DNA from: Azospirillum lipoferum 4B
GTDB taxonomy: Bacteria; Pseudomonadota; Alphaproteobacteria; Azospirillales; Azospirillaceae
DNA length: 64,000 nt
Reading direction: 5' to 3'
NCBI RefSeq assembly: GCF_000283655.1
Contig: NC_016622.1
Location: 2,244,501-2,308,500, forward strand
Shown: positions 34,126-47,935 of the stretch, one piece after another
Numbering within the stretch: the first letter of the stretch is position 1
Layout: each line of letters starts with the position of its first letter
Notes under the pieces: generated by a model
What the model was told of the DNA's origin: nothing
Seen by the model: only the letters and a program-made list of their open reading frames with translations
Database searches by the model: none
Program-made: the position numbers and the translations under genes

Positions 34126-34440
34126 GTGTCGCTGATCAAGTGGACGGAGGAGGATGGCGGGCGGATTCGCCTGGGCCTGCCCAGCGACCTGGACTTGCCC
34201 ATGGCGCAACCTCTGCTCGACAGCCTGCGTGCCGCCTTCAAGGCGTCGGCGGACGTCACCGTGCAGGCGGACGCGGTGGAGCGGATCAGCGCCGCCTGCA
34301 TCCAGGCCCTGGTCGTCGCCGCCCGCGATGCAGCCGAACGCGGGGCCGCCTTCGTCCTCGCCGCCCCGTCCGAGGTCCTGTCCGAAGCGTGCGAGGATTT
34401 GGGTCTCGCCGCCTGGCTGAAGCAATGGAGCCGAGCGTGA
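34126..34440 (+). CDS. STAS domain protein, first gene of the chemotaxis cluster
   Basis: 104 residues, a single STAS fold (LIKWTEEDGGRIRLGLPSDLDLP; VTVQADAVERISAACIQALV). At the loop where anti-sigma antagonists carry the phosphorylatable D-S-x-G motif it reads ISAACIQ, so the usual serine and preceding aspartate are missing and it is probably not regulated by Ser phosphorylation. It starts at GTG and its stop overlaps cheY as GTGA. STAS proteins of this kind often precede cheY-cheA in alphaproteobacterial clusters; their role is unclear (scaffold or partner binding). A second, canonical STAS gene is at 44279. Confidence 0.8.
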   Translation: MSLIKWTEEDGGRIRLGLPSDLDLPMAQPLLDSLRAAFKASADVTVQADAVERISAACIQALVVAARDAAERGAAFVLAAPSEVLSEACEDLGLAAWLKQWSRA

Positions 34441-34802
34441 AGAAGAAAGTGATGACGGTGGATGATTCGCGGACCATGCGCGACATGGTGTCCTTCACCC
34501 TGCGGGGCGCCGGCTATGACGTGGTGGAGGCCGCCGACGGCCAGCAGGCGATGAGCGCCATCGCCACCACCAAGGTCGATCTGGTCATCACCGACCTGAA
34601 CATGCCGGTGATGGACGGGCTGACCCTGATCCGCAAGCTGCGCGCCATTCCCGCCCACCGCACCCTGCCGATCCTGATGCTGACCACCGAAGCGGACGAG
34701 AGCAAGAAGTCGGAGGGCCGGGCCGCCGGAGCGACCGGCTGGATCGTGAAGCCCTTCAACCCCGACAAGCTGGTGTCGGTGGTGCAGAAGGTCTGCGGCT
34801 GA
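34437..34802 (+). CDS. cheY: chemotaxis response regulator CheY
   Basis: 121 residues, a stand-alone receiver. Acid pocket D9-D10 (VDDSRTMRD), phosphorylation site D53 (ITDLNMPVMDG), conserved T in LTTEAD and K in IVKPFNPDK. CheY phosphorylated by CheA would act on the flagellar switch or another output. The GTG at 34437 (GGAG upstream, GTGA overlap) is preferred over ATG 34425 because orthologues begin MKK. Confidence 0.95.
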   Translation: MKKKVMTVDDSRTMRDMVSFTLRGAGYDVVEAADGQQAMSAIATTKVDLVITDLNMPVMDGLTLIRKLRAIPAHRTLPILMLTTEADESKKSEGRAAGATGWIVKPFNPDKLVSVVQKVCG

Positions 34803-34831
34803 ACCGCAGCGGACGGTAAGGAGGCATAGCC

Positions 34832-37126
34832 GTGGACGATCTCAGCCGCTTCAAGCAGACCTACTTCGACGAAAGCGCCGAATTGCTGGCCGTCGCCGAG
34901 GCCGGGCTGCTGCGCCTCGCCCCCGGCGAGATCGACATGGACGAGGTGAACGCGATCTTCCGCGCCGTCCATTCGATCAAGGGCGGCGGCGGCGCCTTCG
35001 GCTTCAACGACCTCGTCGCCTTCGCGCACGAGTTCGAAACGGTGATGGACGGCGTGCGCAACGCCGAGATTCCCGTCACCACCGAACTGGTGGACACGCT
35101 GATCCGCGCCAACGACGTGCTGGCCCGCCTGCTGGCCCATGCGGCCGACGAAACCGACGCGCCGGCGGGCACCACCGACGACACCGTCGCGGCGCTGCGC
35201 CGCTTCCTGGACAACGCCGAGGCTCCGGCGGAGGAGCCTGCGGCGCCCGCTTCCGCATCCGCCCCCTATCCCGACGACGAGGATGACGAGGCCGGCATCT
35301 TCGGCGACGCGCTGGCCGCCATCCAGGCCGCCCGCGACGACCAGCCCTCCCCTTCGATTTCAGGCCCGGTGCCGGAGGGCAAGGTCCGCTGGACCATCGT
35401 CTTCCGCCCGAAGGCCGAATTGCTGCTTTCGGGCAACGAGCCGACCTACATGCTGCGCGCCCTGCGCCGTCTCGGCGACGCGGAGGTCGTCTGCCACCTG
35501 GACAAGCTGCCCTCCCTGCGCGACCTCGACGCCGAGTTGCTGCATCTGTCCTGGACGGTGACGCTGCTGGCCGATCCGCAGGTCGACCGCGCCCAGATCG
35601 ACGACGTGTTCGAGTTCGTCGCCGACGACTGCGACATCCGCATCAGCGCCGAGGCGCCTCCCCCCGCCATCATCGAGCCGGCCGATCCTCTGCCGGCCGC
35701 CACCGCGCCGGCCGCCAACCTGCCGGAACCGGCGGCACCCGCCTCGCCGCCGGCAGCGGCCACCCCGGCCACCACCTCCGGCTCCCCCGGCGCCGCGAAG
35801 GCCGGCGAGGGCGCCAAACGCGGCAACGGCAGTACCGGCGGCGACCATTCGGGGCCGACCACCCACACCATCCGCGTCGACCTCGACAAGATCGACCGGC
35901 TGGTCAACATGGTCGGCGAGATGGTCATCACCCAGGCGATGATCGCGGAGCATCTGCGCGACCTGCCGCCCGGCCAGTTCCAGGAACTGCTGGAGGGGCT
36001 GGAGAGCCTTGCCCAGCACACACGCGAGCTGCGCGAGAGCGTGATGTCGATCCGCGCCCAGCCGGTCTCCAGCGTCTTCTCGCGCATGCCGCGGCTGGTG
36101 CGCGAATGCGCCGCCGCCACCGCCAAGGAAGTGATGCTGGTCACGTCGGGCGAGACGACGGAGGTCGACAAGACGGTGGTCGAAAACCTCGTCGATCCGC
36201 TGACCCACATGATCCGCAACTCCATCGACCATGGGCTGGAAGGGCCGGAGGAGCGCGAACGCCTCGGCAAGCCGCGCGCCGGCACCGTGCATCTGTCCGC
36301 CGCCCACCGGTCCGGCCGCATCGTGATCGAGGTGACGGACGACGGCCGCGGCATCAACCGCGCCAAGGTGCTGTCCAAGGCCATCGAGAAGGGGCTGGTC
36401 CAGCCCGGATCCAGCCTGTCGGACGAGGAGATCGACAACCTGATCTTCCTGCCCGGCTTCTCCACCGCCGATCAGGTGTCGAACCTGTCCGGCCGCGGCG
36501 TCGGCATGGACGTGGTGCGGCGGAACATCTCCAGCCTGGGCGGGCGCATCGGCGTCTATTCGACGCCGGGCGAGGGCTCGCGCTTCGTGCTGTCGCTGCC
36601 GCTGACGCTGGCCGTGCTGGACGGCATGGTGATCTCGGTGGGGGAGGAGCGCTTCGTCCTGCCGCTGACCAACATCGTGGAAAGCCTTCGGCCCAAGCCT
36701 GCCGACCTGCATGGGCTGGTCAACAAGTGCGACGTGATGATGGCGCGCGGCGAGTATGTGCGGCTCGTCCACCTGCACCGGCTGTTCGGCATCCCCAAGG
36801 CCATCGACGACGCCACCAAGGGGCTGGTCGTGCTGGTGGAGACGGAGGACGGCTCCCGCCTCGGCCTCGTGGTCGACGAGGTGCTGGGCCAGCAGCAGGT
36901 CGTCATCAAGAGCCTGGAGGCCAATTTCCGCCGGCTGGACGGCGTGGCCGCCGCGACCATCCTGGGCGACGGCCGGGTCGCCCTGATCCTGGACGTCGCC
37001 GGCCTGCGCGAAATGAGCCGCCACGGCGCCGGCTATGGAAACGGCGCCGGCGGCGCCACCCCGCCCTCCCCATCCCTGCCCGCCCCGGCGGACAGGTCCG
37101 ACCAGCGTCAACGCCAAACGGTTTGA
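34832..37126 (+). CDS. cheA: chemotaxis histidine kinase CheA
   Basis: 764 residues with all five CheA domains. P1/HPt has phospho-acceptor H47 in FRAVHSIKGGGGAFG. A P2-like region and an Ala/Pro-rich linker (to about 340) follow. Then come P3 dimerisation (DKIDRLVNMVGEMVITQAM), the P4 ATPase (N box MIRNSIDHGLE, G1 VTDDGRGINR, G2 GRGVGMDVV) and P5/CheW-like (YVRLVHLHRLFGI to the end). It autophosphorylates under receptor control and passes phosphate to CheY and CheB. The GTG start follows AAGGAGG. It is the core of the cluster from 34126. Confidence 0.98.
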   Translation: MDDLSRFKQTYFDESAELLAVAEAGLLRLAPGEIDMDEVNAIFRAVHSIKGGGGAFGFNDLVAFAHEFETVMDGVRNAEIPVTTELVDTLIRANDVLARLLAHAADETDAPAGTTDDTVAALRRFLDNAEAPAEEPAAPASASAPYPDDEDDEAGIFGDALAAIQAARDDQPSPSISGPVPEGKVRWTIVFRPKAELLLSGNEPTYMLRALRRLGDAEVVCHLDKLPSLRDLDAELLHLSWTVTLLADPQVDRAQIDDVFEFVADDCDIRISAEAPPPAIIEPADPLPAATAPAANLPEPAAPASPPAAATPATTSGSPGAAKAGEGAKRGNGSTGGDHSGPTTHTIRVDLDKIDRLVNMVGEMVITQAMIAEHLRDLPPGQFQELLEGLESLAQHTRELRESVMSIRAQPVSSVFSRMPRLVRECAAATAKEVMLVTSGETTEVDKTVVENLVDPLTHMIRNSIDHGLEGPEERERLGKPRAGTVHLSAAHRSGRIVIEVTDDGRGINRAKVLSKAIEKGLVQPGSSLSDEEIDNLIFLPGFSTADQVSNLSGRGVGMDVVRRNISSLGGRIGVYSTPGEGSRFVLSLPLTLAVLDGMVISVGEERFVLPLTNIVESLRPKPADLHGLVNKCDVMMARGEYVRLVHLHRLFGIPKAIDDATKGLVVLVETEDGSRLGLVVDEVLGQQQVVIKSLEANFRRLDGVAAATILGDGRVALILDVAGLREMSRHGAGYGNGAGGATPPSPSLPAPADRSDQRQRQTV

Positions 37127-37135
37127 GGCCCAGCG

Positions 37136-37681
37136 ATGAGCAGTTCCTCCGCAATCGCCACCGTCAACTCCCGCACCGACCTCCAGACCGCCGGCGGCAC
37201 CGCCAACGGGACGGAGGAGCAGTACGTCACCTTCACGGTCGGCAGCGAGGAATATGGCGTCAACATCCTGGCCGTGCGTGAAATCCGCGGCTGGACACCG
37301 GAAAGCCGCCTGCCGAACCTGCCGGACTATGTCCGCGGCGTGATCAACCTGCGCGGCATCATCATCCCGATCTTCGACCTGCGCGCCCGCTTCGGCGGCG
37401 GCCCCACCCAGGTGACGAAGCGCCATGTCGTGGTGGTGATGCAGGTGGGCGAGCGCACGCGCGGCATCCTGGTCGACGCCATCTCCGACATCCTGGCCAT
37501 CGGCCATGACGCGATCAAGCCGCCGCCCGACGTCGACAGCGGCCTGATCGACGCCGAATATCTCAGCGGCCTCTACACCGCCGATGACCGGATGGTGACC
37601 CTGCTGAACGTCGAGAAGCTGTTCGCCGGGGAGCATGTCGACCAGGACGCCCCGCGCGCGCCGGCACTCGAAACCACCTGA
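37136..37681 (+). CDS. cheW: chemotaxis coupling protein CheW
   Basis: 181 residues, one CheW domain: QYVTFTVGSEEYGVNILAVR, LPDYVRGVINLRGIIIPIFD, AISDILAIGHDAIKPPPDVD, MVTLLNVEKLF. The 30-residue N-terminal extension is Ser/Thr/Asn-rich. It bridges CheA and the receptor in the signalling array. It lies between cheA (9 bases) and the receptor gene. Confidence 0.96.
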   Translation: MSSSSAIATVNSRTDLQTAGGTANGTEEQYVTFTVGSEEYGVNILAVREIRGWTPESRLPNLPDYVRGVINLRGIIIPIFDLRARFGGGPTQVTKRHVVVVMQVGERTRGILVDAISDILAIGHDAIKPPPDVDSGLIDAEYLSGLYTADDRMVTLLNVEKLFAGEHVDQDAPRAPALETT

Positions 37682-37748
37682 CCGGAAAGAGTCAGGGAAC
37701 CTTCGGCGCCGCTGCAGCGAGAAACAATAAGAAGAGGAAACGTCACCG

Positions 37749-40358
37749 ATGGCCACCGACGGTATGCCCGCCAAAGCCGGCAGCTTTCTCAGCAACATGC
37801 GCATCGCCAAACGGCTGTGGCTGGTCTTCGGCCTTCTGCTGGTCCTGATCGCCGCCCAGTCCGGCGTGGGCATCCTGGGGCTGGACGGGCTGAACCGCCG
37901 CATCGACGGGGTCATCGCCTCCGGCGACCTCGCCGTCTTCGCCAAGGATCTGGAAAGCCGTCTGGCCGCCGAACGCCTGCAGACCCGCGAATACATCAAT
38001 CTGGGAACGCCCGAGTCACTTGACCGGCTGCGCGTGCTGCGCGGGGAGTTCAATTCGGCGATGGCGCAGCGGCAGGCGACGCTGGCGGCCTCGCCCCAGG
38101 CCGCCGCCTTCGCCGAGCTGGACGCCCTGCACACCACCTACCATGAGCGGTTCGAGGCGGTGCGCGCCATGCGGGAGCAGGCCGACCGCAGCCTGCGCGA
38201 ACGGATGGACCCGCTGGGCGCCCAGGTAACGAAACTGCTGGAGGAGGTGATCTCGACGGCCGGCGCCTCCGGCGACAAGGATGCTGCCTTCGCCACCCAG
38301 GAGGTGGAGAAGCGCTGGCTGATGGTGCGCTTCAGTGCCAACCGCGCCATCGGCCTGCGCGACGCCGCAGCGGCCATGCAGGTGGAAACCGAAGGCAAGG
38401 CGATGGCCAACGCCGTCGCCCGGCTGTCCGCCGTCGTTCGTGGCAACAGCGGCCTGTCGATGGCCCTGCGCGAGGTGGATGCCCGCGCCGCCGACTATCG
38501 CGCCGCCTTCCGCGACGTCATCGCCGCCAATGACGAGGCGAAGCGCCGCGCCGACCAGCTCGCCGCCGCCGCCACGGCGGTCAACGACGCCATCGACGGC
38601 ATCGTCGGCCGGATCGCCGCCGATGCCAGGGCGACGGAGGAGGAGGCCGGGACCATGGCGGCCTTCACCATCCGCCTGACGCTGGGGCTGGGGCTGCTGT
38701 CGCTGGTGATCGGCGTCGTCGCCGCCAACCGGATCGCCGCCTCCATCGTCACGCCGGTCACCGGCATCCGCCGGGTGATGGCCGAGCTGACCGACGGCAA
38801 GCTGTCGGTCGCCGTCCCCCACACCGGTCAGCAGGACGAGCTGGGCGACATGGCCCGCGCCGTCGCGGCCTTCAAGGATGAGGCGGTGGAAGCCCTGCGC
38901 TCGCGCATCGCGCTGGAACGGGTGTCGGCCAACATCATGATGGCGGACACCGACGGCCGCATCCTCTACGCCAACGACTCGATCATGGCCATGTTCCGCA
39001 ATGCCGAGGCCGATCTGCGCGCCTCGCTGCCGGGCTTCGACGCGACCAGGCTCGTCGGCCAGAATTTCGACGCCTTCCATCGCGACCCCTCGCACCAGCG
39101 CCGCCTGCTGGCCGACCTGAAGCAGACCCACCGCGGCTGGGCCAGGACCGGCGGCCGCACCTTCCAGGTCATCGCCAACCCGGTGGTCAGCCGCCAGGGC
39201 GAGAAGCTGGGCACCGTCATCGAATGGCGCGACCTGACGGAGGAGCTGGCGATCGAGGCGGAGATCAGCGCGATGGTCGAGAATGCCGTCCGCGGCGACT
39301 TCAGCCATCGCATCGCGCTCGACGGCAAGACCGGCTTCTTCCGGCTGGTCAGCGAAGGCATCAACCGCCTGTCGGAGAATGTCGCCGCCGTCACCGAAGA
39401 ACTGGCATCGGTGCTGGAGGCGCTGTCGCAAGGAGATCTCAGCCGCCGGATCGACCAGCAGTATGAGGGCGTGTTCCAGCGGCTGAAGGACGATTTCAAC
39501 GGCACCGTGGCGCATCTGTCGGAGATCGTCCGGCGCATCGACCATGCCGCCGGTTCCATCGCCGTCGCCAGCCGCGAAGTGGCGGAAGGCAGCCTGGACC
39601 TGTCGGAACGGACCGAGCAGCAGGCGTCCTCGCTGGAGGAAACCGCGGCCAGCATGGAACAGCTCGCCGCCACCGTGCGCTCCAACGCCGACAACGCCCA
39701 GCAAGTCAACGGCTATGCCACCGAGGCGCGCACCGCCGCGTCCCGCGGCGGCGAGGTGGCGGTCAGTGCCGTGGAGGCCATGCGCCGGATCGAGCAGTCG
39801 TCGCAGAAGATCGCCGACATCATCGGCGTGATCGACGAGATCGCCTTCCAGACCAACCTGCTGGCGCTGAACGCCGCGGTGGAGGCGGCCCGTGCCGGCG
39901 ATGCCGGGCGCGGCTTCGCCGTCGTGGCCCAGGAGGTGCGGCAGCTCGCCCAGCGTTCGGCCCAGGCATCGAAGGAGATCAAGTCGCTGATCCTCGACAG
40001 CGGCGGGCAGGTGCGCGAGGGCGTCGGGCTGGTCCGGTCCGCTGGCAGCGCCCTGACGGAGATCGTGTCGGGCATCGGCCGCGTCGCCGATCTCGTGTCG
40101 GAGATCGCGCGGGCCACGGCCGAACAGGCGTCCGGCCTGGACGAGGTCAACATCGCCATCGCCCAGATGGACGAGATGACACAGAAGAACGCAGCCCTGG
40201 TGGAGGAAAGCACCGCCGCCGCCCGCTCTCTGGAGGATCAGGCCGACCAGCTGCGTCAGCAGATGACCTTCTTCACCCTGGACCGCCAGTCCCGCGGCTC
40301 CGCCTCCGCAGCCGCCGCTTCCACCGGAGAGATCCGGCGGCAGCAGGTGCCCGCCTGA
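37749..40358 (+). CDS. methyl-accepting chemotaxis protein with periplasmic helical sensor and PAS domain
   Basis: 869 residues. TM1 (about 23-45), a large helical periplasmic domain (about 45-305, helical bimodular-like), TM2 (about 306-330, [21 protein letters not shown]), HAMP, a PAS-like domain (about 393-500, [19 protein letters not shown]), a second HAMP-like segment with repeated [20 protein letters not shown], then the signalling coiled coil with the hairpin tip [20 protein letters not shown] followed by [16 protein letters not shown]. No C-terminal CheR-tether pentapeptide is evident. Because it is encoded inside the che cluster it is probably the dedicated receptor of this pathway. 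The PAS could add a cytoplasmic redox or ligand input. Confidence 0.95.
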
Positions 40359-40377
40359 CGATGCTGCCGGTGCCGCG

Positions 40378-41289
40378 ATGACCGACCGCTCCTCCGCCCT
40401 GACGATCGAATCCCCGGCGATACGCCGGGTGCCGGACGCGGTGTTCGGCGGCGCGCGCGAGTTCCATTTCGAACGGCATCACTTCGACCTGATCGCCGGA
40501 CTGCTCTATCAGCTGGCCGGCATCGCGCTGGCTCCGCACAAGGCGGAGATGGTCTATGCCCGGCTGGCGCGCCGCCTGCGCGAACTCCGGCTGGCCGATT
40601 TCGACGCCTACTGCGCCCTGCTGCAGGGCGACGGCGGGGTGAACGAAATCGGCTTCCTGGTCAATGCGCTGACCACCAACCTGACCAGCTTCTACCGCGA
40701 ATCGCATCATTTCGACTTCCTCGCCTCCTCCGTCCTGCCGGAGGTGCGGACACGCAATGCCAGCGCCTCCCGTCCGCGGCTGCGGCTGTGGTCGGCCGGC
40801 TGCTCCTCGGGGCCGGAGCCCTACACCATGGCGATGGTGCTGGTCTCGACCATGGGCGCGGACCTGCGCCGCTGGGACGCCCGCATCCTCGCCACCGACA
40901 TCGACACCCACATGGTCGACACGGCCCGGCGCGGCGTCTATCCGCTGTCGGGCGCCACCGGCATTCCGCCCGCCATCCGCCAGCGCTTCACCCACGACAC
41001 CCGGATGAACGGCGAGCCGGCGGTGGAGATGGGCGAGGATCTCAAGCGGCTCGTGACGGTCAAGCCTCTGAACCTGCTGGAACATTGGCCGATGTCCGGC
41101 CCGTTCGACGCGATCTTTTGCCGCAACGTCCTGATCTACTTCGACCGGCGCGGCCGCACGCAGGTGATAGAAAACTTCGGCCGGATGCTCCGCCCAGGCG
41201 GGTATCTGTTCCTCGGCCACTCGGAGAGCCTGTATGGCGTGTCGAACCTGTTCCGACAGGCCGGCCCAACGATCTACCGGAGGGAGTGA
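40378..41289 (+). CDS. cheR: chemotaxis protein methyltransferase CheR
   Basis: 303 residues. N-terminal helical CheR_N (DLIAGLLYQLAGIALAPHK), then the SAM domain: RESHHFDFL, RLRLWSAGCSSGPEPYTMAM (motif I), ILATDID, FDAIFCRNVLIYFD and GYLFLGHSES. It methylates receptor glutamates for adaptation and is opposed by CheB. It is encoded between the receptor and cheD; only 3 bases separate it from cheD. Confidence 0.97.
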   Translation: MTDRSSALTIESPAIRRVPDAVFGGAREFHFERHHFDLIAGLLYQLAGIALAPHKAEMVYARLARRLRELRLADFDAYCALLQGDGGVNEIGFLVNALTTNLTSFYRESHHFDFLASSVLPEVRTRNASASRPRLRLWSAGCSSGPEPYTMAMVLVSTMGADLRRWDARILATDIDTHMVDTARRGVYPLSGATGIPPAIRQRFTHDTRMNGEPAVEMGEDLKRLVTVKPLNLLEHWPMSGPFDAIFCRNVLIYFDRRGRTQVIENFGRMLRPGGYLFLGHSESLYGVSNLFRQAGPTIYRRE

Positions 41290-41292
41290 GCG

Positions 41293-41955
41293 ATGAACGC
41301 CCCCACCCTCTCCCATGCGGGCCCCAGCCCGGCGGCACCGGCGCGGCGGCTGGGCAGCGGACGCTATTTCAACCAGGAATTCAAGGCGGAGACCATCAAG
41401 ATCGCGCTGGGCCAGCAGGCGGTCAGCGACCGGGGCGACCTGATGATCGCGACCACGCTGGGCTCCTGCGTGGCTGCCTGCATCCACGATCCGGTTCGGG
41501 GGATCGGCGGCATGAACCATTTCATGCTGCCCGACCTGCCGGCCAGCGAGTTGGAGGGCGCCGGCGCCGCCGCGCGCTACGGATCGGTCGCGATGGAACG
41601 GCTGATCAACGCCCTGCTCGCCGCCGGGGCCGACCGCAGGCGCCTGCAGGTCAAGCTGTTCGGCGGCGCCAGCGTCATCGACTCGAGTTATGACATCGGC
41701 GGTCTGAACAGCCGCTTCGCACTGGATTATGTGCGGGCGGAGGGGCTGACGCTGGCCGGGCAGGATCTGGGCGGCTGCTCCGCCCGGCGCCTGCATTATT
41801 TCCCGCACAGCGGCCGCGCCCTGCGCCGCCTGCTGCGGCCGGAGGCGGCGGCCGACACCGTCACCCGCGAACGGTCCTTCATCACCCATCTCGCCCGTAC
41901 CGCCGTGGAGGGCGAGGTGGAGCTGTTCGGACCCGCCGATGCGGGAGGGAACTGA
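41293..41955 (+). CDS. cheD: chemoreceptor glutamine deamidase CheD
   Basis: 220 residues. The catalytic Cys is in [13 protein letters not shown], and the His and Thr/Asn contacts in [11 protein letters not shown]; further family blocks are [19 protein letters not shown] and [11 protein letters not shown]. It deamidates receptor Gln residues to Glu, creating methylation sites; in some bacteria it also docks to CheC/CheY. No cheC is seen in the window. It lies 3 bases upstream of cheB. Confidence 0.95.
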
Positions 41956-41958
41956 CTT

Positions 41959-43020
41959 ATGCCCAGATCGATCCGCGTCGTCATCGTCGACGACAGCGCC
42001 CTGATGCGCGAGATGCTGAAGGACATCCTGACCCGCGAACCGGGGATGGAGGTCGCCGGCGTCGCCCGCGACGCCTTCGAGGCGCGCGACGTGATCAAGG
42101 CGACCAACCCCGACGTCATCACGCTGGACGTCGAGATGCCGAGGATGGACGGCCTGTCCTTCCTGGAAAAGATCATGACGCTGCGGCCGACGCCGGTGAT
42201 CATGGTCTCCTCCCTCACGCGCGAGGGATCCGACGCCGCCATCCGCGCGCTGGAGCTGGGGGCCGTCGACTGCGTCGCCAAGCCCGGCGGCTCCGACGGG
42301 CTGGGGTTCGAGGCGACCGCGATGGAGCTGGTCTCCAAGATCCGGGTCGCCGCCACCGCCCGGCTGGCCATGCGCCGGCCGCCTGCCGTCCATGGCGTCC
42401 TGCCCACGCCGCGCCGCGCCGGATCGGGAAAGCGGCTGATCGCCGTCGGCGCCTCGACCGGTGGGGTGGAGCGCATCCGCGACCTTCTGGCCGCCATGCC
42501 GGCCGACTGCCCGCCCATCGTCATCACCCAGCATATGGGCCCCAGCTATGTGCCCAGCTTCGCCGCCCGGCTCGACCGGCTGTCGGCGCCCACGGTGCGG
42601 GTGGCCGTCCATGGCGACCGGCCGGCCCAGGGGCTGGTGCTGATCGCGCCCGGCGACCGCCACCTCGCCATCGCCCGCGACACCACCGGTTTCGTCTGCC
42701 ACATCCAGGACACGCCGCCGGTCAGCGGCCATCGCCCGTCGGTGGACGTGCTGTTCGCCTCAGTCGCCAAGGCGGCCGGCGCCAACGCGGTCGGCGTCAT
42801 CCTGTCCGGCATGGGCCGCGACGGCGCCATTGGCATGAAGGCCATGCTCGATGCCGGCGCCTTCACCATCGGCGAACAGGAATCGAGCTGCGTCGTCTAC
42901 GGAATGCCGCGCGCCGCCAAGGAGGCCGGTGCGGTCGCGGTCGAACTTCCGCTCACCCAAATCCCCGCCGAAATGCTGCGCGCCTTCGACGCCGTCGGCG
43001 AGCGCCCCCGCACCGCCTGA
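41959..43020 (+). CDS. cheB: chemotaxis response regulator protein-glutamate methylesterase CheB
   Basis: 353 residues. Receiver domain ([14 protein letters not shown]; phospho-Asp in [12 protein letters not shown]; Lys in CVAKPGG), a linker, then the methylesterase with triad Ser in [11 protein letters not shown], His in [10 protein letters not shown] and Asp in [10 protein letters not shown]. Phosphorylation by CheA activates demethylation or deamidation of receptors. It completes the adaptation set cheR-cheD-cheB. Confidence 0.98.
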
Positions 43021-43061
43021 CCCGAGCGGGCATCCGGGCCGAGTTCCCAAGGAGCACCAGT

Positions 43062-44225
43062 ATGTTCAACCCCGCCGCCGCCAGAGATGCCGCCCAGTTC
43101 GCCGCCCGAGATGCCGCTCCGGCGATGGCGGACCGCCCGGCACCGCCCCCTGCGGACGGAGAGGCCAAGGTCTCGGTCACGGCAGAGCTTCTGTCGACCT
43201 GGCTCGGCTTCGCCGACGTGCAGCGCCGCACGCTCGACATCGTCCAGAGCGAGCTGACGCGCACGTCGAACCATGTGGAGACCTCCACCCTCGACCTGTC
43301 GGAGCGCTTCCGCGAACTGGCCCAGAAGGCGCTGGAACAGTCGGAGCGGGTGGAGCAGATCGTCGCCATGGCGGGATCGGTGGACATCGACGGCGAACGG
43401 ATGCCGCTCGATTCGCTGGTCGTCGGTATGCAGGACATGATCACCGACATGGTGACCAACATCGTCACCCTGTCGCGCCATGCCATGAGCATGGTCTATC
43501 TGCTGGACGACGTTCAGAAGGACGTGGCCGAGCTGGAGAAGTCGATCGGCGACATCGACGGCATCAACCGCCAGACCAATTTCCTGGCGCTGAACGCCAC
43601 CATCGAGGCCAGCCGCGCCGGGGAGGCCGGGCGCACCTTCGCCGTGGTCGCGCAGGAGGTGCGGCACCTCTCGCGCACGACCGGCGAGCTGGCGGACCGC
43701 ATGCGCAGCAAGGTGGGCGCGGTGGTCAAAGGCGTGCGCAACGGCCACGACATCCTGCGCCAGATCGCCAACACCGACATGTCGCCGCAGATGCTGGCGA
43801 AGGAACGCGTCGACAAGACGATGGACAGCCTGGTGGCCCAGACCACCCATTTCCAGGCGGTGCTGGAAACGGCGGCATCGGTGTCGACCGACATGTCGGC
43901 CACCATCGCCCATGTCATCACCGGCATGCAGTTCCAGGATCTGACCAAGCAGCGGATCGAGGCGATCAACGACAGCCTCGCCATCATGAGCGCCGGGCTG
44001 GGCGAACTGGAAACCCGCATCCGCGCCCAGGTGCCGCCGGGCATCGGCGCGCGGGAGCCGCAGGAATGGCTGAACCAGCTGATGGGCCGTTTCACGCTGA
44101 GCGAGATGCGCGAGCGTTTCGTGCGCAAACTGCTGCTGGAGGGCACCGCGCTGGACGAGAACGGCGTGCTCGACCTGGATGTCGGAGGGGACAATAGTTC
44201 CGGCGGCGACATTGAACTTTTCTAG
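43062..44225 (+). CDS. soluble receptor-like protein with CheZ-like C-terminus
   Basis: 387 residues, no membrane segment, almost entirely helical. The middle resembles a receptor tip (about residues 165-210: [20 protein letters not shown] then [19 protein letters not shown]). Downstream, [20 protein letters not shown] resembles the helix of CheZ that holds the catalytic FQDLTGQ region. The protein ends with an acidic linker and DIELF, similar in style to the C-terminal CheY-binding peptide of CheZ. I infer a cytoplasmic coupling or phosphatase-like component; the cluster has no separate cheZ. Known alternatives are an orphan soluble MCP lacking a sensor. Confidence 0.75.
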
Positions 44226-44278
44226 CGCGCAACAGACGACGCTTGTACACTGAATCACCAATCCTGAAAGACGACACC

Positions 44279-44584
44279 ATGGATTACGGTATCGAAGTGC
44301 GCGACCAGGAGGCGGTGGTCCGCCTGCGCGGCCGCCTGACCTTCAACGACCATGCAAAGCTGCGCACCCTGATCGGTGAGATGGGCCAGAACAAGCCCCG
44401 CCGCCAGGTGCTCGACCTGTCCTCGCTGGAATTCGTCGACTCCGCCGGCATCGGCATGCTGCTGATCGCGCGGGAAGAGATGGACCGCGCCGACAAGCAG
44501 TTCGTCCTGCGTGCCGCCGCCGGCCAGGTGAAGCGGGTGCTGACCGTGGCGCAGATCGCCAAGATCGTCCCGATCGAGGACTGA
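44279..44584 (+). CDS. STAS anti-anti-sigma factor (RsbV/SpoIIAA-like)
   Basis: 101 residues. A compact STAS domain with the canonical motif VLDLSSLEFVDSAGIGMLL, whose serine after Asp is the phosphorylation site in SpoIIAA/RsbV. Unphosphorylated antagonists bind the HATPase partner and release its target; phosphorylation by that partner switches them off. The gene is 5 bases upstream of the HATPase gene and belongs with the two PP2C genes in a partner-switch unit fused to the che operon. ATG 44279 chosen; a TTG 12 codons upstream is an alternative. Confidence 0.93.
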   Translation: MDYGIEVRDQEAVVRLRGRLTFNDHAKLRTLIGEMGQNKPRRQVLDLSSLEFVDSAGIGMLLIAREEMDRADKQFVLRAAAGQVKRVLTVAQIAKIVPIED

Positions 44585-44589
44585 TCCGC

Positions 44590-45369
44590 TTGACCGACGG
44601 GGCCACCCTTCCCAGCGGCGACGTTTCCGGGCTCCGCACGCGCTTCGCCGCATTCATCGCGCCAGGACTGCCGCCCGACCGCGGCGACCGGTTGGGACAG
44701 GCGCTGGGCCTGCATCCGGCAGTTGGGCCGGCCGGTTCCGGACCGCTGGCGCTGCTGGTGATGGACGGGACCACGGCGGACGCAGAATCGTTGTGGCTGC
44801 CCCCGGTCGCAGCCTGGGTCGAGCCGGTGGCCGGCGACGAGGATGGCGGCGGACTGGCCGAATTGCTGGCCGAGGCGTCCGGCACCGATCTCTATGTCAA
44901 CCTGACCACCGCGACCGCACACGACCTGCAGCTGGGCGGTCGCCTGCTGGCCGCCATCGGCGCCCGCCATCCGCTTTCCGGGCACCGCCGCGACGATATC
45001 GAACTGGCCCTGCATGAGGCGGTCAGCAACGCGCTGGTGCATGGCAATCTCGGCGTCAGCGGCATGAAGGAGCTGAGCACCCAGGAACTGGAACGCTTCT
45101 CCCGCGATCTGGGCGACGGGTTGGCCGACCCGGTACTCGCCGCCCGCCGGATCGCCATCGCCGTGCGCATCGATCCGCCGCAAGACGCGTCGGAGAATGG
45201 CCGGGCAGTGGCGACGGTCGAGATCACCGACCAGGGCGCCGGCTTTGTCCCGCGCAGGCCGGAGCGCGCCGGTGCGTCGGGCCGCGGACTCGACCTGATC
45301 GCCAGCATCGCCGACGGGCTGGAGATCGAGGATGGCGGCCGGCGCATCCGCCTGAGGTTCCGGCTGTGA
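44590..45369 (+). CDS. HATPase anti-sigma-type serine kinase (RsbW/SpoIIAB-like)
   Basis: 259 residues. The C-terminal half is a GHKL ATPase: N box ELALHEAVSNALVHGNLG, G1 VEITDQGAGFVP, G2 GRGLDLIASIADG, RLRF end. The N-terminal 120 residues (LRTRFAAFIAPGLPPDRG...) form a separate domain of unknown role, longer than in RsbW (about 160 residues total). It would phosphorylate the STAS protein encoded just upstream and bind a second partner, a sigma factor or another effector not identifiable here. TTG start after GAGGA; stop overlaps the next gene as GTGA. Confidence 0.88.
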   Translation: MTDGATLPSGDVSGLRTRFAAFIAPGLPPDRGDRLGQALGLHPAVGPAGSGPLALLVMDGTTADAESLWLPPVAAWVEPVAGDEDGGGLAELLAEASGTDLYVNLTTATAHDLQLGGRLLAAIGARHPLSGHRRDDIELALHEAVSNALVHGNLGVSGMKELSTQELERFSRDLGDGLADPVLAARRIAIAVRIDPPQDASENGRAVATVEITDQGAGFVPRRPERAGASGRGLDLIASIADGLEIEDGGRRIRLRFRL

Positions 45370-46625
45370 CCATGACCGGGCAGGACATCTCCGGCTACGG
45401 CCGTCCGCAAAGCCTCGAAGGCCGGGATCCGGAACTCCGGAGCCCCGATTCACAGGTCGCCGACTCACTGGTCGCCGACTCGCAAATCCTGGATTGCCCG
45501 ATCCTGGTGGTGGACGACACCGCCTTCAACCGCACCGTGATCGGCACCTTCCTGGCCGAAGCGGGGTTCCGCAGGATCTCCTTCGCCACCAATGGGATGG
45601 AAGCGCTGGCGATGATCGAGGCCGGCGTTCCCGACCTGCTGATCCTCGACATCATGATGCCGGGGATCGACGGATACGAGGTCTGTCGCCGCCTGCGCGC
45701 CATGCCGGAGGCGGCGGACCTGCCGATCCTGGTGCAGACTGCGCTGTCGTCGGGCGGGGACCGCAACAAGGCCTTCGCCGCCGGCACCACCGACCTCGTG
45801 GCGAAGCCGTTGGAGCGGACGGAGCTGCTGGCCCGCGTCCGCATCCACCTGGAAGACCGCGTGCTGATCCGCCGGCTGCAAAGCTACCGCGCGCGGGTGG
45901 AAGCCGAACTGTCCATCGCCCGTTCGATGCAGGAGCATCTGCTGCCGACGCCCGCGCAATGCACCGCGGTGGCCGCGACGGCCGGCTGCACGCTCCGCGC
46001 CCACAGCGCGATCTCGCCCCATCTCGGCGGCGATCTCTGGGGGCTCCTGCCGTTGCAGGGCCGGCGTTTCGGCGTCTATCTGCTGAACGTCGCCGGCCAG
46101 GGCGTCTCGGCTGCACTGAACGCCTTCCGCCTGCATACCCTTCTTCAGGAACTCGGCCCTGTCCACGGCGAGGATGCCGCCGCCCTGCTGAGCGCCCTGA
46201 ACGACCGCGCCGCCGGCCTGCTGGCACCGGGAGAGACGGCAACCATGACCTACGGCGTGGTCGATGGCGAGCTCGGGCGCTTCACCCACGCCTCCGCCGA
46301 AGGGGCTCCGCCGATGATCCTGCGCGGCGACGGCGGGTCGGAATTCGGCGCCGCCACCGGGATGTCGATCGGCATCGCTCCCGGCACCCGCTATCGCGCC
46401 GAGGTGATGGACCTGCCGCCGGGTTCCGTGCTGGCGCTCTACTCCGTCGCGGTGCTGGAGGCGCTGGATGCCGGCGGGACCGGGATCGGGCTCGGCTGGA
46501 TGATCGCCCGCGCGGTGGCGGAAGGCGACGGCTTCGACGCCGTCGTGCGCTCGCTCGGCTTTGCGCTGGGACAGGTCAGCGGCGACGACCACACGCTGCT
46601 GTGGATCGAGCGGAGGGCCAGGTGA
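45366..46625 (+). CDS. response regulator with degenerate PP2C/SpoIIE phosphatase domain
   Basis: 419 residues. A receiver (about 44-165) has D50-D51 and the phospho-acceptor D95 (LLILDIMMPGIDG) and Lys in VAKPLE. A coiled linker (VEAELSIARSMQEHLLPT) joins it to a SpoIIE-type domain. The first metal Asp (LGGDLWG) and the last (SGDDHT) are kept, but the second is Asn241 (LLNVAGQG in place of xDxxGHG) and the third motif reads YSVAVLEA with no Asp (V361). It is therefore probably a pseudophosphatase or a weak enzyme, and may compete with or regulate its neighbour at 46622. Start GTG with GTGA overlap; an ATG lies two codons downstream. Confidence 0.88.
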   Translation: MTMTGQDISGYGRPQSLEGRDPELRSPDSQVADSLVADSQILDCPILVVDDTAFNRTVIGTFLAEAGFRRISFATNGMEALAMIEAGVPDLLILDIMMPGIDGYEVCRRLRAMPEAADLPILVQTALSSGGDRNKAFAAGTTDLVAKPLERTELLARVRIHLEDRVLIRRLQSYRARVEAELSIARSMQEHLLPTPAQCTAVAATAGCTLRAHSAISPHLGGDLWGLLPLQGRRFGVYLLNVAGQGVSAALNAFRLHTLLQELGPVHGEDAAALLSALNDRAAGLLAPGETATMTYGVVDGELGRFTHASAEGAPPMILRGDGGSEFGAATGMSIGIAPGTRYRAEVMDLPPGSVLALYSVAVLEALDAGGTGIGLGWMIARAVAEGDGFDAVVRSLGFALGQVSGDDHTLLWIERRAR

Positions 46626-47854
46626 ATAGCGGAGACATGATGGCGGCCGGCCCGCTTGCCGGAGGAGAGGACTCCGCGGACGGATTGGCCGCCGCCCGCG
46701 TGCTGGTCGTCGACGACAACCGGATCAACCGCCATCTCCTGCTGGCCTTGCTGGAGCGCGGCGGGATCTCGCTGATCGAACAGGCGGAGGATGGGCAGGA
46801 GGCGCTGGCCCGGATGGAGCGCTTCAAACCCGACCTCGTCCTGCTCGACCTGATGATGCCGCGGATGGACGGGTTCGAGATGTGCCGGATCCTGCGCGCC
46901 GACCCGCGCTGGAAATCGCTTCCGGTGCTGGTGCAGTCCAGCTTGAACCGGGTGGAGGACCGCGCCCGCGCCTTCCGCGCCGGGGCGACCGATTACGTCA
47001 CCAAGCCGATCAACGCGGTGGAGCTGCTGGCCCGCGTGCGCATCCAGCTTCGCAAGCGCGCCATGCTGCGCGACCTGGAGCGGTATCACAGCCGGACGGA
47101 GAGCGAGTTGGCGCTTGCCCGCGCCATGCAGGCCCGGCTGATGCCCGGTCCCGACCGGCTGGCGGAACTGGAGGAGGCCACCGGCATCGCCATCGACGCC
47201 CATTTCGCCCCCTCATCCGAACTGGGCGGCGATTTCTGGGGAATCGCCCGGCTGCCGGACGGCCGGGTCGCCGTCCATATGGTGGATTTCTCCGGCCATG
47301 GCGTGGGGGCGGCGCTGAACACCTTCCGGCTGGACGCCATCTGCCGCCAGATCGGCGGCACCGAGCTGACCCCTGCCGAGTTCCTGGCCGCGATGAACCG
47401 CCGGCTGTGCGGCCTGCTTCCCTGCGGCCAGTTCGCCACCATGCTGGCCGGCATGATCGACCCGGCGTCGGGCATGTTCGATTACGCCTCGGCCGGATCG
47501 ACGGCGCCGATGATGTGGCTGCCCGGCGACGAGGCACCGCGGATGGGCGACGGCAGCGGCCTGCCGCTCGGCCTGCTGCCGTCCGCCACCTACGACAATC
47601 GGCAGCTGCCGATGCCGCCGGGCGCAAGGCTGTTCCTCTACTCCGACGCCGCGATCGAAATTCCGCTCTGCTCGGACGGTCATGATGTGCTGGACGAACC
47701 GGGCCTCGCCGTTCTGCTCTCCCGCCGCCTTCATGAGCCCGACGGCGCCCGCCTGCTCGACGGCCTGCTGGGCGACCTCCATGCCACGGGGCCCATCGAC
47801 GACGATCTGACGGCGCTGCTGCTGACGCGCCGGGCGTGCGAAGTGGGAATGTGA
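46622..47854 (+). CDS. response regulator with PP2C/SpoIIE serine phosphatase domain
   Basis: 410 residues, a tandem paralogue of the preceding gene. Receiver VLVVDDNRINRHLLLALLER with phospho-Asp in LVLLDLMMPRMDG and YVTKPINAVE; linker helix ESELALARAMQARLMPG; then a SpoIIE domain with all four metal motifs: LGGDFWG, HMVDFSGHGVGAAL, LYSDAAIE and DDDLTALL. By analogy with RsbU it would dephosphorylate the STAS antagonist when its receiver is phosphorylated, by CheA or another kinase. It starts at GTG with GGAGG upstream, GTGA overlap with the previous gene. It is the last gene of the cluster; a terminator follows. Confidence 0.92.
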   Translation: MNSGDMMAAGPLAGGEDSADGLAAARVLVVDDNRINRHLLLALLERGGISLIEQAEDGQEALARMERFKPDLVLLDLMMPRMDGFEMCRILRADPRWKSLPVLVQSSLNRVEDRARAFRAGATDYVTKPINAVELLARVRIQLRKRAMLRDLERYHSRTESELALARAMQARLMPGPDRLAELEEATGIAIDAHFAPSSELGGDFWGIARLPDGRVAVHMVDFSGHGVGAALNTFRLDAICRQIGGTELTPAEFLAAMNRRLCGLLPCGQFATMLAGMIDPASGMFDYASAGSTAPMMWLPGDEAPRMGDGSGLPLGLLPSATYDNRQLPMPPGARLFLYSDAAIEIPLCSDGHDVLDEPGLAVLLSRRLHEPDGARLLDGLLGDLHATGPIDDDLTALLLTRRACEVGM

Positions 47855-47907: not shown

Positions 47908-47935
47908 AAAGGCCGCTCCCAGGGGAGCGGCCTTT
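47908..47935. terminator. bidirectional terminator between the che/partner-switch operon and rpsD
   Basis: AAAGGCCGCTCCC / GGGAGCGGCCTTT, a 13-bp stem with a two-base centre and an A-rich left flank; it suits both convergent transcripts. Confidence 0.9.

Follow-up and report, generated by a model that had tools for sequence, protein, structure and literature searches.

We analysed a chemosensory operon of Azospirillum lipoferum 4B in which nine chemotaxis (che) and receptor genes are followed by four genes of a partner switch (the tail), namely a STAS-domain antagonist, a HATPase serine kinase and two proteins that each join a receiver (REC) to a PP2C-type domain (REC-PP2C copies a and b). 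The operon occupies positions 34126-47854 of a 64,000-nucleotide stretch of contig NC_016622.1, which was examined as a whole and is called the window. The nearest arrangements described elsewhere belong to chemosensory class F7. Its 'stage 1' gene order, which includes the two antagonists as well as the phosphatase, has been published for V. cholerae cluster III and M. alcaliphilum (PMC7184735), and the ten-gene F7 che1 locus of S. oneidensis, a single transcription unit as indicated by reverse-transcription PCR, includes crsR and crsA; its authors suggested a role of che1 in RpoS control (PMC9855816). A preliminary description of the window, made from the sequence alone, had proposed a coupling of che genes to a partner switch. 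With these two systems published, the idea is already known, and new here are the split-off kinase, the duplication of REC-PP2C and the conserved loss of catalytic residues in one copy. In a literature search of limited reach, covering parts of the papers cited in this text, no account was found of the Azospirillum tail, the split, the duplication or the pseudophosphatase. STAS-only proteins in chemotaxis operons have been noted in a review (PMC8256260).

The window resembles F7 stage 1 in its succession of antagonist, cheY, cheA, cheW, receptor, cheR, cheD, cheB, McpA-like receptor, second antagonist and serine phosphatase. It differs in having one cheW where two are described (among our fetched loci, L069, L073, L079 and L080 have two and L077 has one), in that the Azospirillum kinase is a separate protein, in having two REC-PP2C proteins, one of them inactive by sequence, and in that the Azospirillum CheA lies in a separate F7 branch. 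With S. oneidensis che1 it shares the presence, in one locus, of F7 che genes, an McpA receptor and a STAS/REC-PP2C-kinase switch; che1 as described also has an Aer2 receptor, and unlike the window it has the stage 2 order, a single fused CrsR and, as its target, RpoS, which is not known from alphaproteobacteria. The HsbR-HsbA system of P. aeruginosa likewise has REC, PP2C and kinase parts that act on a STAS protein; unlike the window proteins, HsbR is one fused protein, driven by HptB and with FlgM, HsbD and RpoS as outputs (PMC6482189).

Our reading, to which we give a probability of roughly 0.6, is that the operon combines a che4 array with a partner switch of the CrsR-CrsA/HsbR-HsbA type that contains a pseudophosphatase and would act as a second branch fed by CheA4. 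The features on which it rests are the following.

34126-34440, + strand: STAS1, CheS-like, without a phospho-Ser motif (R-I-S-A-A-C); Pfam STAS_2, E=6.6e-9, and motif
34437-34802, + strand: cheY4-like receiver, its GTG start overlapping the STAS1 stop; Response_reg, E=4.6e-28, on the containing open reading frame (ORF)
34832-37126, + strand: cheA4-like, F7 class, with Hpt, dimerisation, HATPase and CheW domains; Pfam and CheA tree
37136-37681, + strand: cheW4-like; Pfam CheW, E=8.5e-39
37749-40358, + strand: tlp4a-like receptor with HAMP, PAS, HAMP_2 and MCP signal domains and a weak TarH match below the cut-off; Pfam
40378-41289, + strand: cheR4-like; Pfam CheR, E=3.1e-58
41293-41955, + strand: cheD4-like; Pfam CheD, E=4.1e-23
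41959-43020, + strand: cheB4-like; Pfam CheB_methylest, E=1.6e-57, and Response_reg
43062-44225, + strand: McpA-like (Tlp4b-like) chemoreceptor, no other Pfam domains; MCPsignal, E=9.7e-25, and genome searches
44279-44584, + strand: STAS2, of the canonical anti-sigma-factor-antagonist type, with D-S-A-G; STAS_2, E=6e-14 (44243-44581), and motif
44590-45369, + strand: HATPase serine kinase with intact E-N-H, D-G and G-G motifs and a fast-evolving N-terminal extension; HATPase_c_2, E=2.1e-13
45366-46625, + strand: REC-PP2C copy a, with intact receiver and the PP2C catalytic Asp lost (LLNVAGQG, YSVA); Response_reg, SpoIIE and catalytic columns
46622-47854, + strand: REC-PP2C copy b, with receiver and four PP2C Asp intact; Pfam, alignment and best PDB match 3eq2
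47908-47935, no strand assigned: 13-bp perfect inverted repeat, a probable terminator shared with convergent rpsD; terminator scan and repeat check

By the ORF list and Pfam, the thirteen plus-strand genes fill the interval with intergenic gaps of -4 to +67 bases. Their tight packing and order were correctly given in the preliminary description, and the same order is found in the Azospirillum loci treated below, so it is not due to chance. The GTGA stop/start overlaps reported there were found as well, with 4 bases at each of three junctions (STAS1/cheY at 34437, HATPase/REC-PP2C-a at 45366 and a/b at 46622). Starts were picked by hand wherever the longest ORF ran into its neighbour (GTG 46622 for REC-PP2C-b and GTG 34437 for cheY, for which an ATG at 34425 is also possible). 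The label 'soluble receptor/CheZ-like' once attached to 43062-44225 stands in its receptor part, the product being an McpA-like chemoreceptor; CheZ is ruled out by the MCPsignal domain.

The window operon is most likely the Azospirillum che4 (F7) operon, as argued from the class of its CheA, its uniqueness in related genomes and its gene content. A midpoint-rooted CheA tree of 35 rows, built by a quick method, places the window CheA in a clade of 26 rows (Shimodaira-Hasegawa-like approximate likelihood ratio test, SH-aLRT, 93). E. coli CheA belongs to this clade too, as do the CheAs of F7 loci that we call gamma-type, a label inferred from gene order. Of the four CheA matches in each of the genomes G001 and G752, one is close (96% and 82%, respectively) and three are at 31-39%; these three lie in both cases outside the 26-row clade and outside the next larger set of 27 rows (SH-aLRT 97). 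The gene content (CheS, CheY, CheA, CheW, a PAS/HAMP receptor, CheR, CheD, CheB and the McpA-like/Tlp4b receptor) fits the description of A. brasilense che4, an F7 system with CheS, CheY4, CheA4, CheW4, Tlp4a with a PAS domain between HAMP domains, CheR4, CheB4 and Tlp4b (PMC6759762, PMC8561660, PMC8100600); CheD4 is added here from the published count of nine proteins (PMC8561660). Nine proteins would take the count as far as Tlp4b, so that text seems not to include the four tail genes, in which the window differs from che4 as described. Because che4 controls swimming reversals in A. brasilense (PMC8561660, PMC6759762), the window array probably reaches the flagellar motor too, by orthology, and the contrast with which the preliminary description began, that arrays normally end at the motor and this one does otherwise, finds no support.

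Nine Azospirillum loci were recovered with the HATPase protein; eight keep the gene order from cheY or cheA on, and the ninth (L007), a short contig, shows the tail alone. Among them, STAS1 lay inside the fetched flank only in L009. As a separate observation, a Tlp4a-like membrane receptor gene was not found between cheW and cheR in L009, L046, L047, L048 and L063, all of which keep the other che genes.

The partner-switch genes are evolutionarily tied to che genes. The McpA-like gene was found in 57 of the 82 genomes of the order of the nearest genome, which we take to be Azospirillales (E <= 1e-40). In 55 of these 57, a relative of REC-PP2C-b lies no more than about 5 kb away on the contig of the McpA-like gene, and in the remaining two it is on another contig, as read by eye from the search tables; the b relative of G809 is only 45% identical. 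One of the 25 order genomes without McpA, G800, has a close b relative (58%). At class level, McpA was found in 31 of 385 genomes (E <= 1e-15), and 17 loci outside the order were fetched from 16 genomes (two via the phylum search), with 14 lower-scoring class genomes left out. STAS and REC-PP2C adjoin McpA in 11 of the 17, ten of the 11 with a HATPase gene, which lies on the opposite strand in L022 and L026. Within the order the specific arrangement is STAS, HATPase, REC-PP2C-a, REC-PP2C-b; the non-order loci with all three parts have a single REC-PP2C and run STAS, REC-PP2C, HATPase in nine of ten, the HATPase gene coming first in L017.

In the phylum survey, the McpA alignment matched 75 of 398 genomes (E <= 1e-30) and 20 loci were fetched. 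McpA and STAS are followed by one fused REC-PP2C-HATPase gene (a frame of 555-694 codons) in 11 of the 20, so that here the kinase domain is inside the phosphatase protein. Among these fused-form loci, L069, L073, L077, L079 and L080 have the stage-1 order and L071, L083 and L085 the stage-2 order; in L068, L072 and L074 the McpA-STAS-fused block sits inside a different che cluster, whose CheA has its own receiver; the CheAs of L068 and L072 lie outside the F7 clade (L074 is not in the tree). The switch may accordingly travel together with the McpA-like receptor as one unit. The McpA profile broadened to chemoreceptors generally on iteration, and McpA in our locus maps rests on genome-search matches, size and place. 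With 55 of 57 order genomes, 11 of 17 non-order loci and 11 of 20 phylum loci, the module as a chance neighbour is ruled out, and the two sets of genes do co-occur in relatives, which the preliminary description had proposed as a check. Second McpA-like receptor genes, about 50% identical, were also seen in L012, L055, L057 and L060; in the stretches fetched for these, the profiles found no che or switch genes.

The two REC-PP2C copies differ in their catalytic residues. The four catalytic PP2C Asp occur together in all 41 b copies and all 11 single copies, and in none of 41 a copies. With L062, L065 and L094 added, all 44 a copies have lost the Asp of the YSD motif, whereas all 44 b copies retain it; the fused REC-PP2C-HATPase forms keep it in 11 of 11. 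The preliminary description was right in counting two REC-PP2C proteins; that both are phosphatases is rejected on sequence grounds, copy a being without the catalytic Asp. We take the YSD Asp to be the equivalent of SpoIIE D746, which is supported by its alignment with FSD of 3eq2. In SpoIIE, D628, D746 and D795 bind metal (PMC8080068).

The receiver of copy a is retained. All 44 a copies, like all 44 b copies, have the phospho-Asp, and none of 41 a copies has lost the receiver Asp, the acidic pocket Asp or the Lys. Median identity of the a copies to that of the window is 71.6% for REC, 75.8% for the linker, 69.2% for the switch helices and 46.7% for the rest of PP2C, and the corresponding values for the b copies are 80.2, 66.7, 68.0 and 69.3%. 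Because receiver, linker and switch-helix region are conserved while the catalytic remainder drifts, copy a is not simply decaying and looks like a retained pseudophosphatase, a phospho-gated regulatory subunit. In a tree of 93 REC-PP2C proteins (quick method, with long-branch warnings), a copies, b copies and single copies are each set apart from the rest by one branch (support 94, 98 and 84); the simplest explanation is a single duplication, no later than the base of the order.

RssB offers a comparison, since it too consists of a receiver and a PP2C-type domain, and among PDB sequences copy b matches that of P. aeruginosa RssB (3eq2) best. E. coli RssB has a receiver and an inactive phosphatase domain and works as an adaptor, P. 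aeruginosa RssB dimerises via crossing linkers, and RsbU dimers are also linker-mediated (PMC12143880). Unlike E. coli RssB, in which the C-terminal part is lost, copy a keeps the full domain without metal ligands and adjoins its active twin.

The antagonist and the kinase were recognised correctly in the preliminary description. Among 98 aligned STAS proteins, all 53 downstream ones have Asp-Ser, 50 of them in the form DS[AS]G, that of the window included; the other 45, nearly all encoded by the gene before cheY, are without Asp-Ser. STAS1 corresponds to CheS, and its want of a phospho-Ser motif fits this assignment; CheS is a STAS protein that binds CheA in S. meliloti (PMC12654446). The GHKL kinase boxes (N, G1 and G2) of the HATPase are intact in 52 of 52. 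With these motifs and the Asp-Ser conserved throughout, the HATPase should phosphorylate STAS2. Its N-terminal extension (44590-44875) is the fastest-evolving part measured, with a rough dN/dS (ratio of nonsynonymous to synonymous substitution rates) of 0.75, although all such ratios carry little weight because dS is near saturation. An AlphaFold model of the HATPase from 10 sequences had a mean predicted local distance difference test score of 54.5, too poor for a fold search, with low confidence in the extension, which might bind a client. No client gene, for a sigma factor or otherwise, was found within the operon.

Put together, the nine che and receptor genes would form an array in which CheA phosphorylates CheY4 and CheB4; CheA4 and CheY4 would set swimming reversals, as shown in A. 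brasilense and extended to this strain by orthology. In the tail, the HATPase would phosphorylate STAS2 on the serine of D-S-A-G, and REC-PP2C-b would remove this phosphate once its own receiver is phosphorylated; HsbR and CrsR combine both activities in a single protein (PMC6482189). In one of the two states STAS2 would bind a client, probably an anti-sigma factor, another regulator of the HATPase type or a diguanylate cyclase. REC-PP2C-a, presumably an order-level duplicate that lost catalysis and kept a phosphorylatable receiver and a conserved linker, would most likely be a phospho-gated regulatory subunit that pairs with copy b or an adaptor like E. coli RssB. At least one receiver would most likely take its phosphate from CheA4. 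The module would form a slow second branch of a flagellar array and could add to the non-motility phenotypes of cheA4 mutants. A more specific version is doubtful, although we put it forward tentatively: a two-receiver gate, in which CheA4 phosphate reaches both receivers, the inactive copy governs its active twin by way of the conserved linker, and nitrogen and transcription phenotypes follow from the STAS output.

Several observations weigh against the reading of the tail as a CheA4-fed branch. The tail beside McpA (STAS and REC-PP2C) is lacking in 6 of the 17 non-order loci (L025 has STAS and HATPase with no che genes near, L024 STAS only, and L014, L019, L023 and L028 no tail parts downstream of McpA), and the fused form is lacking in 9 of the 20 phylum-search loci. 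G800 carries STAS-HATPase-a-b with an intact a receiver (L062:7278-10948); the 20 kb fetched around the module contain no che genes, and the genome gave no McpA match. Its best CheA is 39% identical, belongs to a cluster elsewhere (L095) and forms a long branch beside the 26-row F7 clade, so that its class is unsure. The surroundings in L062 comprise a gyrB-type gene, PagL and a PAS-GGDEF-EAL gene convergent 1.9 kb downstream, and no clear client gene was found among them. The a and b receivers are 51% identical to each other and 32-37% identical to CheY4, with no sequence sign of CheA specificity. In three loci (L015:16615-20000, L018:1-3273 and L020:1-2757), the HATPase gene is followed by a co-directional hybrid histidine kinase gene with overlapping frames. 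A higher rate of change in the PP2C half of copy a (median dN 0.46 vs 0.28) could also mean slow decay. Phosphotransfer, binding or mutant data for the four tail proteins were not found in the literature search. In gamma species, CrsR and HsbR act on RpoS or FlgM (PMC6482189).

Because G800 keeps the module without an McpA match or a close CheA4 relative, the receivers may have another donor: the module would have been inherited with the che genes and its receivers driven by a hybrid histidine kinase or a phosphotransfer protein, as HptB feeds HsbR in P. aeruginosa (PMC6482189). The kinases in L015, L018 and L020 are possible candidates for such a donor or for an extra input to the switch. We consider a donor other than CheA4 rather unlikely for this operon, given that the phosphatase adjoins the McpA-like gene in nearly all McpA-bearing genomes of the order, that GTGA overlaps occur inside the window tail and that Pfam found no histidine kinase gene other than cheA among the window operon parts; on the linkage, CheA4 is most likely the donor for at least one receiver. 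An output confined to the array is improbable in our view. STAS2 or copy a would then feed back on it as a CheA4 phosphate sink, through STAS2-CheA binding or through a chemoreceptor, with no effect on transcription or cyclic di-GMP. The binding of CheA by CheS in S. meliloti (PMC12654446) gives a precedent, a survey of Campylobacterota proposed, without experiment, a path from REC-PP2C-kinase via STAS to the chemoreceptor (PMC9239204), and the McpA-like receptor with its tail is a recurrent block that also occurs in the other type of che cluster (L068, L072, L074). Two points speak against it: unlike the CheS-type STAS1, STAS2 carries a phospho-Ser motif, and a plain phosphate sink would have no need of a kinase/phosphatase pair. 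That copy a is a functionless, decaying duplicate, kept for the translational coupling of copy b, would agree with the loss of its catalytic Asp in every copy, with the drift and higher dN of its C-terminal part and with the strong divergence of L052_a (branch 3.01). We think this very improbable, since the key residues of its receiver are kept, its aligned frames are open over 349-413 residues from the receiver on and its linker is more conserved than that of b.

For A. brasilense, 'novel and yet unknown regulations' have been spoken of, and mutants without CheA1, CheA4 or both show changes in nitrogen metabolism (PMC8561660). The four tail genes are a concrete candidate route for such regulation in a tractable soil bacterium. 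If true, the two-receiver gate would connect tactic signalling with the effects that cheA4 mutants show outside motility, and a conserved receiver-pseudophosphatase beside an active twin would be unusual among partner switches, comparable to RssB and separate from it.

Downstream of the tail, rpsD is convergent, and the 13-bp perfect inverted repeat (47908-47935) lies between it and the operon. The single terminator of the preliminary description is plausible in this place, but the repeat is shared with rpsD and scored on the minus strand only; the scan returned 3 terminator-like sites in comparison to a mean of 4.8 in shuffles, and no sigma-70-like promoter was found in it. Plasmids searched with the tail DNA and with the HATPase protein gave no match. 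The copy-b protein matched at least 5000 plasmid records, all below 60% identity among those, ten of them listed at 28-37%.

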